From positions 372,001 to 436,000 of the forward strand of contig JASBSY010000014.1 in the NCBI GenBank assembly GCA_030148705.1: 64,000 bases of DNA, in the 5' to 3' direction. The stretch is from Pukyongia sp. GTDB lineage: Bacteria; Bacteroidota; Bacteroidia; Flavobacteriales; Flavobacteriaceae. The translations under genes were made by a program, and so were the position numbers. Shown piece by piece: positions 2,913-22,247 of this stretch (positions are counted from its first letter, which is position 1; every line of letters begins with the position of its first letter). The notes under the pieces are model-generated. The model was not told where the DNA came from. It was given only the letters and a program-made list of their open reading frames with translations, and made no database searches.

Positions 2913-3184
2913 TGTGAATAATAATTTTGAAATTGTAAATTTTAGACCAAGCACCTGTTTTTTCGTTGAAAAGACAAATTTATTAGGAATATCCCTCAAT
3001 TTTAGTAGTATATGGTAATAAATGTAGGAGTTTTTTATGATTTTTACTGAAATATTCGCAAAGATTCTTAGCTGAAATAACCTTATCCGATACATTTTGT
3101 AATCAATTTATTATACCAGCCGAATGTAGCGCACTTTCCAAACTGGGATAACATCTTATCCCCAATTTTGTATTAATGATAAAA
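2913..3184. other. AT-rich spacer between the two repeat arrays
   Basis: No credible coding frame. The only structure noted is a 7-bp inverted repeat GGGATAA/TTATCCC with a 4-nt loop at 3145-3162, just before array 2. Confidence 0.5.
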
Positions 3185-3750
3185 TGGTGAGCCGGTGTTC
3201 GAAAGGGTATGATACGTCGATTACGGCAGCTGGTTTTCGAGTGAGTGGGAAACGCCTCGTTACGAGACCATGGAGAATAGTGACGGCATTGAGAGTTTTC
3301 TGTGAATGTGACACACCTCGCTACTGATCTGTCTGCACAGAAAGAGAATAATAGAATATCATAAAATGAACAAGTGGTCTGAAGGATGTGATACGGCTGT
3401 TGCTTTGCCAACACCCTTGGGAGTTGGACATAAAGAGAACAAGTGTTCGAGTGAGTGGGAAACTTTGGTTGCAGCACCTGGGGAAAAAGATAAATGAGTG
3501 AACGAGAGCGTGTGATATTGGTTGCAGCCTCCCCAGGAGAGTGAAGTAAAAAAGATGAACAAGTGTTTGAGAGGGTGGGATACGGCTCGCTGCTGTCGCA
3601 GCTTGCCACCCCGGAGATTTGGGCCAAAAAAAAAAGTGAACAAGTGTTCGAGTGAGTGGGAAACGCCTCGCTGCTGTCGCAGCTCACCACCCCGGAGATT
3701 TGGGCCAAAAAAAAAGGTGAACAAGTGTTCACCTTTTTTGCCCCAAATCT
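3185..3750. repeat. repeat array 2: degenerate units ending in two exact 81-bp repeats
   Basis: Units recognisable by the head GTGAACAAGTGTTCGAG recur along the segment. The last ones start (TGAAC) at 3556, 3637 and 3718, exactly 81 bp apart. Each carries an inner hairpin GCTGC-TGTC-GCAGC and ends CCCCGGAGATTTGGGCC plus an A-run. Leftward units diverge, each with its own small palindrome (for example CTCCCCAGGAG at 3530-3540). The array closes in a hairpin formed by the end of the last unit and CCCCAAATC (3741-3749). Because 81 is a multiple of 3, long minus-strand frames run through it; they are judged artefacts. Confidence 0.85.
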
Positions 3751-3782
3751 TACCATGAACTTAACCTACTTATGCTATGGTA
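3707..3782 (-). ncRNA. candidate small RNA gene, copy 2, between repeat array 2 and purF
   Basis: Same module as copy 1 on the minus strand: -7 element TATATTTG (3788-3795), 5' hairpin arms TACCAT/ATGGTA (3777-3782 / 3751-3756), linker AAGATTTGGGGC, then terminator hairpin GGTGAAC-loop-GTTCACC (3716-3733) with a nine-U tract (plus-strand A-run 3707-3715). The predicted RNA is about 76 nt. It sits about 115 bases beyond the purF stop, on the purF strand, so read-through from purF is possible. The 32-base conserved block is identical in both copies although the flanking arrays differ, which suggests selection or recent copying. Confidence 0.5.
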
Positions 3783-3899: not shown

Positions 3900-5798
3900 T
3901 TAATAAGCCCGCTCCGGATTCCCTTCGTAAAAGTGAACGTAAGCCCTGTTCACAACTTTTCTACCTCCATCGGTAGGATAGTTGCCGGTAAAATACCAGT
4001 CGCCGAGATTCTTCGGACAAGCCTTGTGAAGGTCGTTTACAGACTGAAATATCAATTTAACTTCGGCACCTATACTTTCATCACTTATAATAGTCGCAAT
4101 CTTATTAGATATTTCCTCGTCTGTAAACGGATCGTATAATTCCTTCACATGATTTATTACTTCCGAACTTTCCTGTGTAAGCGCCTTTTTGGCCTTTTTA
4201 TATATCTTTTCCAGAATATCTTCCGTTCCGCGCTCTTTGTGTAATTGCAACGCAGCCTGAAAAGCGACCAGATCTTCCAGCCTCGCCATGTCAATTCCGT
4301 AACAATCCGGATACCGTATTTGTGGTGCTGAAGACACTACAATGATCTGCTTAGGATGCAGTCGGTCAAGCATTTTTAAGATACTCTTCTTTAAAGTAGT
4401 ACCTCGCACTATACTGTCATCGATTATTACCAGGTTGTCATTAGGCCTAACAACGCCATAGGTAACGTCGTATACATGAGCAACCAGGTCATCTCTACTA
4501 CTATCCTCGGTAATAAACGTGCGAAGCTTAACGTCTTTTATCGCAATTTTCTCGGTGCGTATCTTATGGGCCTGGATTTCTTCCAGTCGCTCGTTGGTCA
4601 ATCCGGCACCTTCTTTTAAAATGGCCTCGTTCTTTTGTTTATTCAGTTCGTTCTGCGCCGCGTCGAGCATTCCATAAAAAGAAGTTTCAGCGGTATTGGG
4701 AATAAACGAGAAGACAGTATTTTCGGTATCCCTGTTAATCGCGTCCAACACCCTCGGCATTACCAGTCTGCCTAATTCTTTTCGTTCCTGGTATATTTCA
4801 GTATCACTTCCCCGTGAAAAGTAAATTCGTTCGAAAGAACAGGATTTTCGCTCCAGAGGTTGGAGGATTTGCTTTTCTGAAAACTCCCCGTTCTTCTTAA
4901 TGATTACGGCATGCCCGGGGCTGATCTCGTGAATATCCTCGAAAGGAACGTTAAATACTGTTTGAATGGCCGGCCTCTCTGAAGCAATCACTATCACTTC
5001 ATCGTCTTTGTAGTAATAGGCCGGTCTTATCCCGGCCGGGTCGCGCAGCACAAACGAATCTCCATGGCCCAGTAAACCCGCCATGGCATAACCACCGTCC
5101 CAGTCCCTCGCCGACTTTTTCAGGATCTTTGCAATATTCAGTTTTTCAGCTATATAGGGGGAAGCTTCCATTTTATTCATCCCATTGGCTTTGGCCTTCT
5201 TATACAGTTTTCTTACAGCATCGTCCAGAAAATGTCCTATTTTTTCCATCACTGTAATCGTATCGGCTTTTTCCTTGGGATGCATCCCCAGCTTGATCAA
5301 ATTACTGAACAGCTCGGTGGTATTGGTCATATTGAAATTCCCCGCAATGATGAGGTTTCTGTGCATCCAGTTATTCTGCCGGAGGAAGGGGTGCACATTT
5401 TCTACGCTGTTAATGCCAAAGGTTCCGTACCTCACATGGCCTAAGTAGAGCTCACCAATGTAAGGGATGTGTTTCTTTTGTGCGCTAACATCTTCTATGT
5501 ATTCGGGATGGCTCTCGAACTCGAGGTTTATACGCTCGTTGATCTGAGCGAAGATATCCTGAATGGGCTGAGCCGCGTTACTCCGAATTCGACTGATGTA
5601 TCGTTCGCCGGGTGAAACATCCAACTTGATGCTGGCAAAACCGGCACCGTCCTGCCCGCGGTTATGCTGCTTTTCCATCATCAGGTACATTTTATTCACC
5701 CCGTAGAAAGCAGTGCCGTACTTGTCCTTGTAGTAGTCCAGCGGTTTTAACAGCCGTATCATTGCGATACCACACTCGTGTTTTAAAGCGTCACTCAT
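3900..5798 (-). CDS. purF: amidophosphoribosyltransferase-like glutamine PRPP amidotransferase, long form
   Basis: 632 residues, about 130 longer than classical PurF. Residues 1-8 are a short propeptide before the N-terminal nucleophile Cys9 (HECGIAM) of the class II glutaminase domain, with RGQDGAG (48-54) and the GNFNMTN loop (153-159). The phosphoribosyltransferase domain carries the PRPP-binding motif DDSIVRGTT (460-468). Expected reaction: glutamine plus PRPP to phosphoribosylamine, first step of purine synthesis. Extra length sits mainly at about 85-115, 200-225 and 375-415 and at the C-terminus. Bacteroidota often also encode a ~500-residue PurF; whether this genome does is not visible. 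Last gene of the purN-rnhA-pfkB-purF strand. Confidence 0.85.
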   Translation of the reverse strand: MSDALKHECGIAMIRLLKPLDYYKDKYGTAFYGVNKMYLMMEKQHNRGQDGAGFASIKLDVSPGERYISRIRSNAAQPIQDIFAQINERINLEFESHPEYIEDVSAQKKHIPYIGELYLGHVRYGTFGINSVENVHPFLRQNNWMHRNLIIAGNFNMTNTTELFSNLIKLGMHPKEKADTITVMEKIGHFLDDAVRKLYKKAKANGMNKMEASPYIAEKLNIAKILKKSARDWDGGYAMAGLLGHGDSFVLRDPAGIRPAYYYKDDEVIVIASERPAIQTVFNVPFEDIHEISPGHAVIIKKNGEFSEKQILQPLERKSCSFERIYFSRGSDTEIYQERKELGRLVMPRVLDAINRDTENTVFSFIPNTAETSFYGMLDAAQNELNKQKNEAILKEGAGLTNERLEEIQAHKIRTEKIAIKDVKLRTFITEDSSRDDLVAHVYDVTYGVVRPNDNLVIIDDSIVRGTTLKKSILKMLDRLHPKQIIVVSSAPQIRYPDCYGIDMARLEDLVAFQAALQLHKERGTEDILEKIYKKAKKALTQESSEVINHVKELYDPFTDEEISNKIATIISDESIGAEVKLIFQSVNDLHKACPKNLGDWYFTGNYPTDGGRKVVNRAYVHFYEGNPERAY

Positions 5799-19499: not shown

Positions 19500-20003
19500 A
19501 TGAACCTACTAAGAACCAGCCTACTGGCTATGGTATTTTGTACAAGCTTATTGTCTTGTGCAAAAGATGAAATCGAAGAAATCGACTCGGTTAATTATTC
19601 AATTGATCTTAATCTTGCTCACGAAACCAATTGGGAACTGGCAGATTCGATCTTAATTCTTGTCAATCAGCATCGTGCATCCCTGGGTTATGCCGCTTTG
19701 AAACGCGATCAGCAGTATGGTTCTGCCTATGCAGTAGATCACACTAAATACATGATCGACCAAAAGCGCATCAGCCATGACAATTTTGAATTTCGGAAGA
19801 ACGCCCTTAAGAACAGAGGTGCATCTACCGTAACCGAAAATGTTGCCTTTGGATATCAAACGGCTGCTTCAGTTGTTAACGCATGGCTTAATAGTCCGGG
19901 TCACAGGCGAAATATAGAGGCCGATTATACACATTCCGGATTTGGTATCATTGCCGACAATCGTGGAAATTACTATTTCACAAACATATTCTACAGAAAA
20001 TAA
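19500..20003 (+). CDS. CAP (SCP/PR-1) domain lipoprotein
   Basis: 167 residues. A lipoprotein signal ends in LLSC (Cys20). The rest is one CAP domain: LVNQHRASLGYAALKRD at the start, HTKYMIDQKRISHDNF with a conserved His, the TENVAFG motif, AWLNSPGHRRNI, and a final YYFTNIFYRK strand. CAP proteins are extracytoplasmic and of mixed function; no protease domain is attached. Anchored to the envelope facing the periplasm or outside. The next gene starts 63 bases on. Confidence 0.88.
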   Translation: MNLLRTSLLAMVFCTSLLSCAKDEIEEIDSVNYSIDLNLAHETNWELADSILILVNQHRASLGYAALKRDQQYGSAYAVDHTKYMIDQKRISHDNFEFRKNALKNRGASTVTENVAFGYQTAASVVNAWLNSPGHRRNIEADYTHSGFGIIADNRGNYYFTNIFYRK

Positions 20004-20028
20004 GATTACTGTTTTCTAAAGTTGAGCA

Positions 20029-20068
20029 ATTGCCGTATTTTTATACAAACACATAAAAATACGGCAAT
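20029..20068. promoter_or_regulatory. perfect 16-bp inverted repeat covering the start codon of the 3-hydroxyanthranilate dioxygenase gene
   Basis: Left arm 20029-20044 (ATTGCCGTATTTTTAT), 8-nt loop, right arm 20053-20068. The right arm includes the first two bases of the ATG at 20067. As RNA it would bury the whole ribosome landing site; as DNA it could be an operator. It lacks the U-tract expected of a terminator for the preceding CAP gene. Confidence 0.7.
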
Positions 20069-20603
20069 GGCTATTTCAAAACCTTTCAATCTTACCAAAT
20101 GGGTAGAAGAAAACCGGGATCTGCTAAAACCCCCGGTGGGAAATAAGAACCTCTACAAGGACGCTGAAGACTATATAGTCATGGTCGTTGCAGGACCCAA
20201 TGCCAGAAAGGATTATCACTACAATGAAACCGAGGAACTCTTCTATCAGCTCGAAGGGAGTATTAAGGTAGTCATCCAGGAAAATGGAGAGCGTAAAGAG
20301 ATGGCCTTGGGCCCCGGAGATATGTACCTGCACCCGGCAAAGGTTCCGCATTCCCCTGTACGGGAGGAAGGTTCGATCGGGCTGGTAATTGAACGCAAAC
20401 GAGACGATCTGGATGCTAAGGATGGGCTTTTATGGTTTTGCGACAACTGTAACAATAAGCTCTATGAGGTCTATTTTCCCTTAACCGATATTGAAACAGA
20501 CTTTCTGAAACACTTCAAACATTTCTATAATTCGAAAGAACTTCGTACCTGCGACAACTGCGGGACGGTTATGGATACCGATCCCAGATTTACTTCCGAT
20601 TAA
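20067..20603 (+). CDS. nbaC: 3-hydroxyanthranilate 3,4-dioxygenase
   Basis: 178 residues, the bacterial length. The cupin core includes DYHYNETEELFYQLEGS (iron ligands His and Glu) and PAKVPHSP (second His). The C-terminal rubredoxin-like site has two CDNC pairs (FCDNCNNKL and TCDNCGTV) typical of bacterial HAO. It opens the ring of 3-hydroxyanthranilate with Fe(II) and O2 in tryptophan/kynurenine degradation. Start chosen at ATG 20067 (MAISKPFNLT), which the homologous N-terminus supports. The start sits in a perfect hairpin. An aldehyde dehydrogenase follows 90 bases on. Confidence 0.93.
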   Translation: MAISKPFNLTKWVEENRDLLKPPVGNKNLYKDAEDYIVMVVAGPNARKDYHYNETEELFYQLEGSIKVVIQENGERKEMALGPGDMYLHPAKVPHSPVREEGSIGLVIERKRDDLDAKDGLLWFCDNCNNKLYEVYFPLTDIETDFLKHFKHFYNSKELRTCDNCGTVMDTDPRFTSD

Positions 20604-20693: not shown

Positions 20694-22247
20694 ATGATAG
20701 CAGCAGCGACTTCCTTTGGAATCGAAGAGGCCCTGAAAAAATTGGGTATTGAAGAAGTTAATTACGGAACCTCAACAGGTACTGAGTGGATGCCGGGAGG
20801 CGAGGAATTTGCCTCTTATTCACCCGTTGACGGAAAATTAATTGGTAAGGTGACCACCACCACCAAAGATGAGTACGAAAAACTGATGAACTCTGCTACC
20901 GAAGCATTCAAAGAATGGCGGGTAATGCCCGCTCCCCAGCGTGGAGAAATAGTAAGACAATTTGGTGAGGAACTTCGCAGATTAAAAGAACCCCTGGGAA
21001 AATTAGTCTCATACGAAATGGGCAAAAGCTATCAGGAAGGTCTTGGTGAAGTCCAGGAAATGATCGATATCTGTGATTTTGCCGTTGGATTATCGCGCCA
21101 GCTGCACGGGTTTACCATGCACAGCGAACGCCCCGGACACCGTATGTACGAACAGTATCACCCCCTGGGCGTGGTTGGAATCATCTCGGCCTTTAACTTC
21201 CCCGTTGCCGTATGGAGCTGGAATACGGCCCTGGCATGGATCTGTGGAGATGTATGTGTGTGGAAGCCTTCTGAAAAGGCCCCGCTCTGCGGAATTGCCT
21301 GCCAGAAGATCGCCGCAAAGGTCTTTGCCAACAACAATCTGCCGGAGGGAATTTCCTGCCTGATAAACGGCGATTACAAAGTTGGAGAGTTTATGACAAA
21401 GGACAAAAGAGTACCCCTTATCTCCGCAACAGGCTCAACCCGTATGGGGAAGATCGTTGCGAGTACGGTAGCCGAACGCCTGGGACGCTCCCTGCTGGAG
21501 CTGGGAGGCAACAACGCCATAATCGTTACTCCGGATGCCGATATTAAAATGACGGTGATTGGTGCAGTATTCGGTGCCGTAGGAACTTGCGGACAACGCT
21601 GTACTTCCACTCGCCGACTCATTATACACGAAAGTATTTACGACCAGGTAAAGGATGCCGTAGTAGATGCCTATAAACAGCTTCGAATAGGAAATCCGCT
21701 GGACGAGAAAAATCACGTAGGGCCCTTGATCGATAAGGATGCCGTGAAAATGTACCAGGATGCGTTAAAACGAGTGGTTGAAGAAGGAGGTAACATCATT
21801 GTTGAAGGTGGTGTACTGGAAGGTGAAGGTTATGAAAGCGGCTGCTATGTTAAGCCGGCCATAGCCGAAGCTGAAGGACATTACGATATAGTCCAACACG
21901 AAACCTTCGCCCCGGTTCTTTACCTTATAAAGTACAGTGGTGATGTGGAAAATGCCATCGAAATTCAGAACGACGTAGCCCAGGGCTTGTCTTCAGCAAT
22001 TATGACCAACAACCTCCGTGAAGCTGAACGTTTCCTGAGTCATGCGGGAAGTGACTGTGGTATCGCCAATGTGAACATCGGAACCAGTGGCGCTGAAATA
22101 GGCGGTGCTTTTGGAGGGGAAAAAGAAACCGGTGGTGGTCGTGAAAGCGGCAGTGATGCCTGGAAAGTCTATATGCGCAGACAGACCAATACGATCAATT
22201 ATACTACCGAATTACCATTAGCACAAGGTATAAAGTTCGATCTTTAA
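20694..22247 (+). CDS. aldehyde dehydrogenase, ALDH7-like (aminoadipate semialdehyde type)
   Basis: 517 residues. Catalytic Cys303 (TCGQRCTSTRR) and Glu269 (LELGGNN), and the NAD-binding ISATGSTRMGK, are all intact. The C-terminal IGGAFGGEKETGGGRESGSDAW matches the ALDH7 (antiquitin, alpha-aminoadipic semialdehyde) group more than the ALDH8 aminomuconate group. Its place after 3-hydroxyanthranilate dioxygenase argues for a role in tryptophan catabolism, while the family argues for lysine catabolism. Sequence alone does not settle this. Ends at a strong terminator. Confidence 0.88.
   Translation: MIAAATSFGIEEALKKLGIEEVNYGTSTGTEWMPGGEEFASYSPVDGKLIGKVTTTTKDEYEKLMNSATEAFKEWRVMPAPQRGEIVRQFGEELRRLKEPLGKLVSYEMGKSYQEGLGEVQEMIDICDFAVGLSRQLHGFTMHSERPGHRMYEQYHPLGVVGIISAFNFPVAVWSWNTALAWICGDVCVWKPSEKAPLCGIACQKIAAKVFANNNLPEGISCLINGDYKVGEFMTKDKRVPLISATGSTRMGKIVASTVAERLGRSLLELGGNNAIIVTPDADIKMTVIGAVFGAVGTCGQRCTSTRRLIIHESIYDQVKDAVVDAYKQLRIGNPLDEKNHVGPLIDKDAVKMYQDALKRVVEEGGNIIVEGGVLEGEGYESGCYVKPAIAEAEGHYDIVQHETFAPVLYLIKYSGDVENAIEIQNDVAQGLSSAIMTNNLREAERFLSHAGSDCGIANVNIGTSGAEIGGAFGGEKETGGGRESGSDAWKVYMRRQTNTINYTTELPLAQGIKFDL

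Follow-up and report, generated by a model that had tools for sequence, protein, structure and literature searches.

What does a long perfect inverted repeat do when it is laid across the start codon of a catabolic gene? The question is raised by a locus of Pukyongia sp., in a stretch of 64,000 nucleotides (positions 372001–436000 of contig C2, in a genome of 2.9 Mb) referred to here as the window. The gene concerned (20067–20603, plus strand) encodes a 178-residue 3-hydroxyanthranilate 3,4-dioxygenase of the nbaC type, called HAO below, which was identified by the NCBIfam and Pfam models NF009763 (272 bits for a cut-off of 220), TIGR03037 (209.7 bits, cut-off 145.95) and PF06052 (174.7 bits, cut-off 25). 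Translation is taken to start at residue 1, where the alignment begins in most of the orthologues listed. Upstream and in the same direction lies a gene for a CAP-domain protein of 167 residues (19500–20003, plus strand), which scores 56.6 bits with PF00188 (cut-off 21.1) and 60.3 bits with the YkwD model TIGR02909, under the cut-off of 171. The stretch between the two genes is 63 nt long (20004–20066). On the other side of HAO, the gene at 20694–22247 codes for an L-piperidine-6-carboxylate dehydrogenase (NF050084, 836.6 bits for a cut-off of 730), and among 90 orthologue loci searched by tblastn, many have a homologue on the downstream side of HAO.

The two arms of the repeat, at 20029–20044 (ATTGCCGTATTTTTAT) and 20053–20068 (ATAAAAATACGGCAAT), form 16 perfect base pairs around an 8-nt loop (20045–20052), and the structure can be stretched to 20025–20072, with 19 of 20 pairs matching and a single mismatch. 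The right arm comprises the predicted 5' untranslated region together with the A and the T of the HAO start codon (20067–20069). The repeat is real and lies beyond chance. The predicted fold of positions 20000–20120 has a z-score of −5.39, with none of 200 dinucleotide shuffles equally stable, and a census of perfect hairpins (arms of at least 12 bp, loops of 3–12 nt) over 436 kb of the contig, of which the window is a part, retrieved ten, among which this one ranks second in length. The first-pass annotation, made from the letters of the window, had given the same arms, loop and ATG placement, and its judgement that such a hairpin would hardly arise by chance at this place is borne out by these numbers. 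The absence of a U-tract, which it also pointed out, is correct as well, since no T-tract follows the stem.

Of the ten hairpins, that of HAO alone is located where a gene with homologues here begins. The hairpin at 3710–3739 of the window overlaps the first codons of a mechanically called 217-residue ORF (3103–3756), which contains internal repeats and has little resemblance to a genuine gene. This hairpin and the one at 2826–2857 are near-identical, of 13 and 14 bp, respectively, with GGTGAACA..TGTTCACC-like arms and a T-rich right side; they lie about 0.9 kb apart, in and beside the repetitive ORF. When the folding energy of the segment from −52 to +6 was computed for 367 ORF starts of the 436 kb, the mean minimum was −6.3 (SD 3.9), and the value of −22.8 at HAO was the second lowest among the candidates listed. 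The lowest value belongs to an hppD-like ORF at position 105251 of contig C2, outside the window, whose listed start, as read by eye, is probably too early. A long imperfect hairpin (minimum free energy −27.5) lies there (about 105251–105310, or about 5251–5310 of locus L215), between this ORF and a homogentisate-dioxygenase-like one, both named by eye.

Orthologous loci were then collected in two ways. A search across the family, covering 199 genomes, detected HAO in 159. From these, the 90 loci with the best scores were retained as a first sample, the last 11 of which (L112–L122) form a group further removed from the rest, at about 55% identity. The second sample consists of 80 named loci, the best 80 of 576 relatives, the nearest ones being Flavobacteriaceae, and it is biased towards close relatives because only these 80 were kept. 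The 170 pooled loci, minus five exact duplicates, gave 165 distinct HAO loci, and a homologous hairpin was recognized in 31 of them, designated the core set. Nineteen core loci come from the 199-genome search, where they are spread over 18 genus codes, and 12 from the second sample, six of them titled Aequorivita and six uncultured or without a name. L100 was left out despite a passing score because its sequence is unrelated, and L066 was added despite an ungapped score below 10. In all 31 loci, the last pair of the stem falls between −3 and +3 of the ATG, the stem overlapping the start codon or ending no more than 2 nt away. The z-scores of the core folds are all below −2, with a mean of −6.0, as expected for a set that was chosen by pairing.

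More telling is the way the two arms have changed together. In the alignment of the 28 distinct sequences among the 31 core loci (A1), both sides have changed with pairing kept at six of the 16 pairs, a figure as high as this being reached in none of 500 shuffles, which take no account of relatedness. Sliding the partner by one to three columns gave six controls, all of them lower on every measure. A G–C pair is replaced by A–U in L054 and by U–A in L085, and the outer stem is altered in L062. The compensatory changes in orthologues that the first-pass annotation had proposed to look for are thus present. Comparison of tree-based independent pairs, using a weakly supported HAO tree of 154 rows from which L112–L122 were left out, yielded three pairs on supported branches, on average 2.2 of them in the expected direction versus 0.1 against, which is too few for significance. 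The strand-specific count, performed on 14 pairs of 27 ungapped sequences, found 5 G–U versus 6 A–C cells amid 36 other mismatches, many of which fall in the two innermost pairs. RNAalifold retained seven of the 16 pairs on alignment A1, the upper stem probably having been broken up by gaps and mismatches. Correction of quasi-palindromes during replication can also mimic compensatory change.

The right arm comes at a cost. An A at position −3, which favours initiation in Flavobacterium johnsoniae (PMC6847099), is present at 85 of 133 other loci and at none of the 31 core loci, and in the six bases immediately preceding the ATG, the GC fraction amounts to 0.65 in the core set versus 0.22 elsewhere. 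Taken with the covariation in the core sequences, there is evidence that the pairing is under selection.

The left arm carries a signal of another kind. The flavobacterial −7 box has the consensus TAHHTTTG and is followed by 4–5 nt up to the transcription start (PMC6847099), and the octamer TATTTTTA at 20036–20043, inside the left arm, is the predicted −7 element of HAO, with an A in place of the near-invariant G. Such a box occurs in all 31 core loci, wholly inside the ungapped left arm in 28 and overlapping it in three; its sequence is TATTTTTA in 28 loci and TACTTTTA, TAACTTTA and TACCTTAG in one each. The motif TAHHTTTV fits 30 of the 31 boxes, L066 fitting a looser version only. The same motif is found between −46 and −20 in 63 of the 134 orthologues lacking the hairpin, versus 11.8 expected from shuffles, so that the box looks like a promoter regardless of the hairpin. 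Given the published spacing, transcription of HAO is predicted to start around 20048, in the loop, 4 nt past the box. The leader would then measure 19 nt in the window and 18–23 nt across the core loci; the median untranslated region in F. psychrophilum is 24 nt (PMC9723704).

Since this predicted start lies in the loop, the mRNA of HAO itself would be devoid of the left arm, and only RNA coming from the CAP gene, the presumed source of read-through, could then fold the hairpin. Folding predictions over the 31 loci give a mean unpaired probability of 0.143 for positions −8 to +3 in the read-through RNA versus 0.668 in the mRNA of HAO; the folds predicted for the window and for the core loci place the stem over the start codon or the ribosome-binding region. 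The following scheme, to which we assign a probability of roughly 70%, would account for this arrangement: the hairpin hides the HAO start codon on read-through transcripts, and the gene's own mRNA escapes through its start in the loop. An RNA begun at CAP and running into HAO would carry both arms, fold and bury the ATG; an RNA initiated in the loop, from the promoter of HAO with its −7 box in the left arm, would carry the right arm only and be open to translation. The left arm begins 25 nt past the CAP stop codon in the window and 24–44 nt past it across the core loci with CAP, probably too far for a ribosome terminating on CAP to reach it. The transcription start, the read-through RNA and the block to translation are all deduced from sequence, at variance in status with the hairpin itself, its conservation, covariation and placement at the ATG, its association with a nearby CAP gene lacking a terminator and the promoter-like motif, which are direct observations. 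The first-pass annotation had suggested that the hairpin may shut off translation, and counted a transcription start within the right arm, after 20053, as an argument against it. The suggestion finds support in a restricted form, the shut-off probably concerning read-through RNA only, and the start predicted at about 20048 comes close to that region and would indeed strip the left arm.

The company kept by the hairpin points in the same direction. CAP lies 59–83 nt upstream, in the same orientation, in 30 of the 31 core loci, and it is a close neighbour in 15 of the 134 loci without the core hairpin. Orthologues lacking any pairing had been named beforehand as evidence against a function; they are numerous (134 of 165 for this hairpin), but they are mostly loci without CAP close by. 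A terminator-like structure between CAP and HAO was detected in none of 30 core loci, in one of 15 other loci with a close CAP and in 22 of 40 loci with CAP further off, by a scan that requires a T-tract and therefore misses other terminators. Hairpin and terminator thus appear, on the strength of these comparisons, to act as substitutes between the two genes; in the proposed scheme, the hairpin would insulate HAO translationally from the gene next to it, at a place where many related loci have a transcription terminator.

A significant structure at the start (z < −2) was observed in 31 of 31 core loci, in L100, L074, L093 and L072 out of the 15 others whose CAP is no more than 93 nt away, in six of 40 with CAP further off, one of 48 with another co-directional neighbour, none of 30 with a divergent neighbour and none for the single unclassified locus. 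Pooling all loci whose CAP is that close gives 34 of 45, of which 30 are core loci, versus eight of the remaining 120; with the core removed because it was chosen by pairing, the figures become four of 15 versus seven of 119. Some of the six significant structures at loci with a distant CAP are ordinary terminators (L058, L172). In 11 of the 45 close-CAP loci, neither a significant structure nor a terminator was found by the T-tract scan.

L104 and L123 look like cases of loss. Among loci with a divergent neighbour, the hairpin occurs in one of 31, which is the one with a remnant of CAP: L104, the core locus that departs from the rule and to that extent counts against it, has a weakened hairpin and no intact CAP gene, with a stretch resembling the CAP 3' end when read by eye, and L239, of the same genus code, has both CAP and the full motif. 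In Aequorivita viscosa (L123), for which no CAP is shown, the left arm and its box are largely kept, the right arm has decayed and an A is found at −3; the eight other loci of its clade (tree support 83) retain the hairpin. In Leeuwenhoekiella, CAP is 325 nt away and followed by a terminator in L131 and is not close in L134, and neither locus has the core hairpin.

Hairpins of unrelated sequence were also seen at this place. L074, L093 and L072 have one over or near the ATG, within the last 50 nt, with CAP 55–76 nt upstream, and they are possibly independent inventions of the same device. In L100 (genome G190), the last 50 nt before the HAO ATG contain an unrelated 17-bp hairpin with TACATTTA at the loop, followed by a T-tract; it is apparently a terminator of CAP wrapped around the promoter box of HAO.

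Could the structure serve the upstream gene instead? An intrinsic terminator was rejected, since a T-tract directly follows the stem in none of 30 core loci. The hairpin might still mainly make or protect the 3' end of the CAP mRNA, through trimming after Rho-dependent termination or through RNase III, with any effect on HAO being secondary. Its tie to CAP and its occupation of the place held elsewhere by terminators would suit such a role, as would the L100 hairpin, unrelated in sequence, in the same place, terminator-like with its T-tract, and with a −7-like box in its loop. A structure of this kind would nevertheless be free to sit anywhere between the genes, yet the stem reaches the ATG or stops within 2 nt of it in 31 of 31 loci, the −7-like box of the core loci falls within the left arm or overlaps it, and none of 30 core loci has a T-tract after the stem. 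We therefore regard a predominant 3'-end role as unlikely, bearing in mind that it may coexist with start masking. The hairpin could also form in the mRNA of HAO itself, starting farther upstream, and work as a translation switch responding to temperature, a ligand or a protein, along the lines that the first reading of the window had proposed. The stable predicted fold is compatible with such a switch, but the left arm contains a −7-like box, loci without CAP seldom have the hairpin and no Rfam family was recognized at the gathering score, all of which make this the hardest of the alternatives to believe. More precisely, Rfam 15 gave no match at gathering score in the window; at E ≤ 1, eight matches appeared, all to models of microRNA precursors and all falling well short of the gathering score (the best, on the minus strand, with E 0.00039), and they are taken as generic hairpin matches.

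A last alternative reads the palindrome as DNA: a dimeric repressor would bind it as an operator covering the HAO promoter and might sense a compound of the kynurenine pathway, as had also been put forward from the letters of the window. The palindrome covers the predicted −7 box and start site, and the count of 5 G–U against 6 A–C does not tell RNA from DNA symmetry. A regulon of kynurenine operators should be visible at the scale of whole genomes, and was not. The pattern GCCGTATTTTTAN{6,16}ATACGGC was found in 17 of 397 genomes (seven of them not in the earlier sample), at one place in each and always at the start of HAO, with CAP 62–72 nt upstream if the distance is taken from the final CAP codon in the alignment. 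The 199 genomes were also scanned with a covariance model of the hairpin, under strict filters that lose weak matches; it hit 18 genomes at E < 1e-7, all at HAO, plus one weak HAO match (G118) and further weak rows corresponding to the minus strand of the same HAO places. Outside HAO, the search for a second site in these 199 genomes returned seven weak matches (E 5e-4 to 5.5e-3), none of them convincing. One, L206 (G027:C7; E 0.0015), is at a start judged by eye to be aconitase-like; its stem is shorter and ends next to the ATG, the left arm includes a −7-like box, and the match may have arisen by chance. Besides, the span between the GCC and GGC half-sites varies from 33 to 38 nt among 27 distinct core sequences, and this variable span together with the single place per genome speaks against a repressor operator. 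The outer half-site letters change together on both sides, and the presence of the hairpin follows the neighbouring gene. The proposal of a regulator sensing a kynurenine compound is thus not supported, in view of the single occurrence, the variable span and the dependence on the neighbour, and an operator is quite improbable. A dispersed family of palindromic repeats was likewise rejected: with up to three mismatches, the Pukyongia genome contains 91 matches versus 67 for the reversed control, and the exact ones are the two arms only.

Masking of a start codon on read-through RNA, the reading preferred here, has precedents. In IS10 and IS50, read-through RNA folds over the transposase start, which shields these elements from outside transcription; unlike HAO, they are transposable elements. 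The leader hairpin of T4 gene e, coding for lysozyme, was described by McPheeters in 1986, as recounted in PMC3014915, and according to this source cuts synthesis 100-fold with respect to RNA lacking it. As proposed for HAO, the long early transcripts of gene e hide the start, and RNA from the late promoter lacks the 5' portion and is translated well; in related phages, a late promoter lies within the stretch encoding the 5' strand (PMC3014915), as predicted at HAO. The differences are that gene e is under phage timing control and has a Shine–Dalgarno sequence, whereas HAO is a metabolic gene, considered here at the level of sequence, in a phylum described as devoid of Shine–Dalgarno sequences (PMC6847099). 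For I-TevI, the hairpin is similarly present only on transcripts from upstream promoters, RNA from the gene's own late promoter being unable to fold it, and comparable arrangements are reported for I-TevII, I-TevIII, segB and Aeh1 mobE; these homing endonuclease genes of the T4 type are, unlike HAO, mobile-element genes in phages (PMC2988022). A large hairpin has also been proposed for the read-through RNA of Bacillus subtilis sigG, which in contrast to HAO encodes a sporulation sigma factor in Firmicutes (PMC5942855). The anatomy of the HAO locus, as predicted here, agrees with the arrangement of T4 e, I-TevI and sigG. The masking mechanism is thus already known; the HAO instance did not turn up, and no report of this element was found in the literature searched on flavobacterial read-through start-codon hairpins, read-through RNA hairpins and HAO regulation in Bacteroidetes.

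A wider conjecture, which we put forward tentatively and hold to be somewhat less probable than its negation, is that start-burying hairpins in Bacteroidota are an evolvable alternative to terminators. Wherever a neighbour on the same strand leaves too little room for a terminator, they would evolve time and again from unrelated sequences, be built from the promoter box, and degenerate after loss of that neighbour or the gain of a terminator; L100, L074, L093 and L072 would then be independent inventions. Whatever the fate of this conjecture, the documented cases of read-through masking are phage genes, to which a sporulation sigma factor has been added as a proposal, and here it would concern an ordinary catabolic gene, over at least 18 genera (by genus code) of one flavobacterial family. 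The HAO case makes testable how compact genomes without Shine–Dalgarno sequences keep adjacent genes separate.
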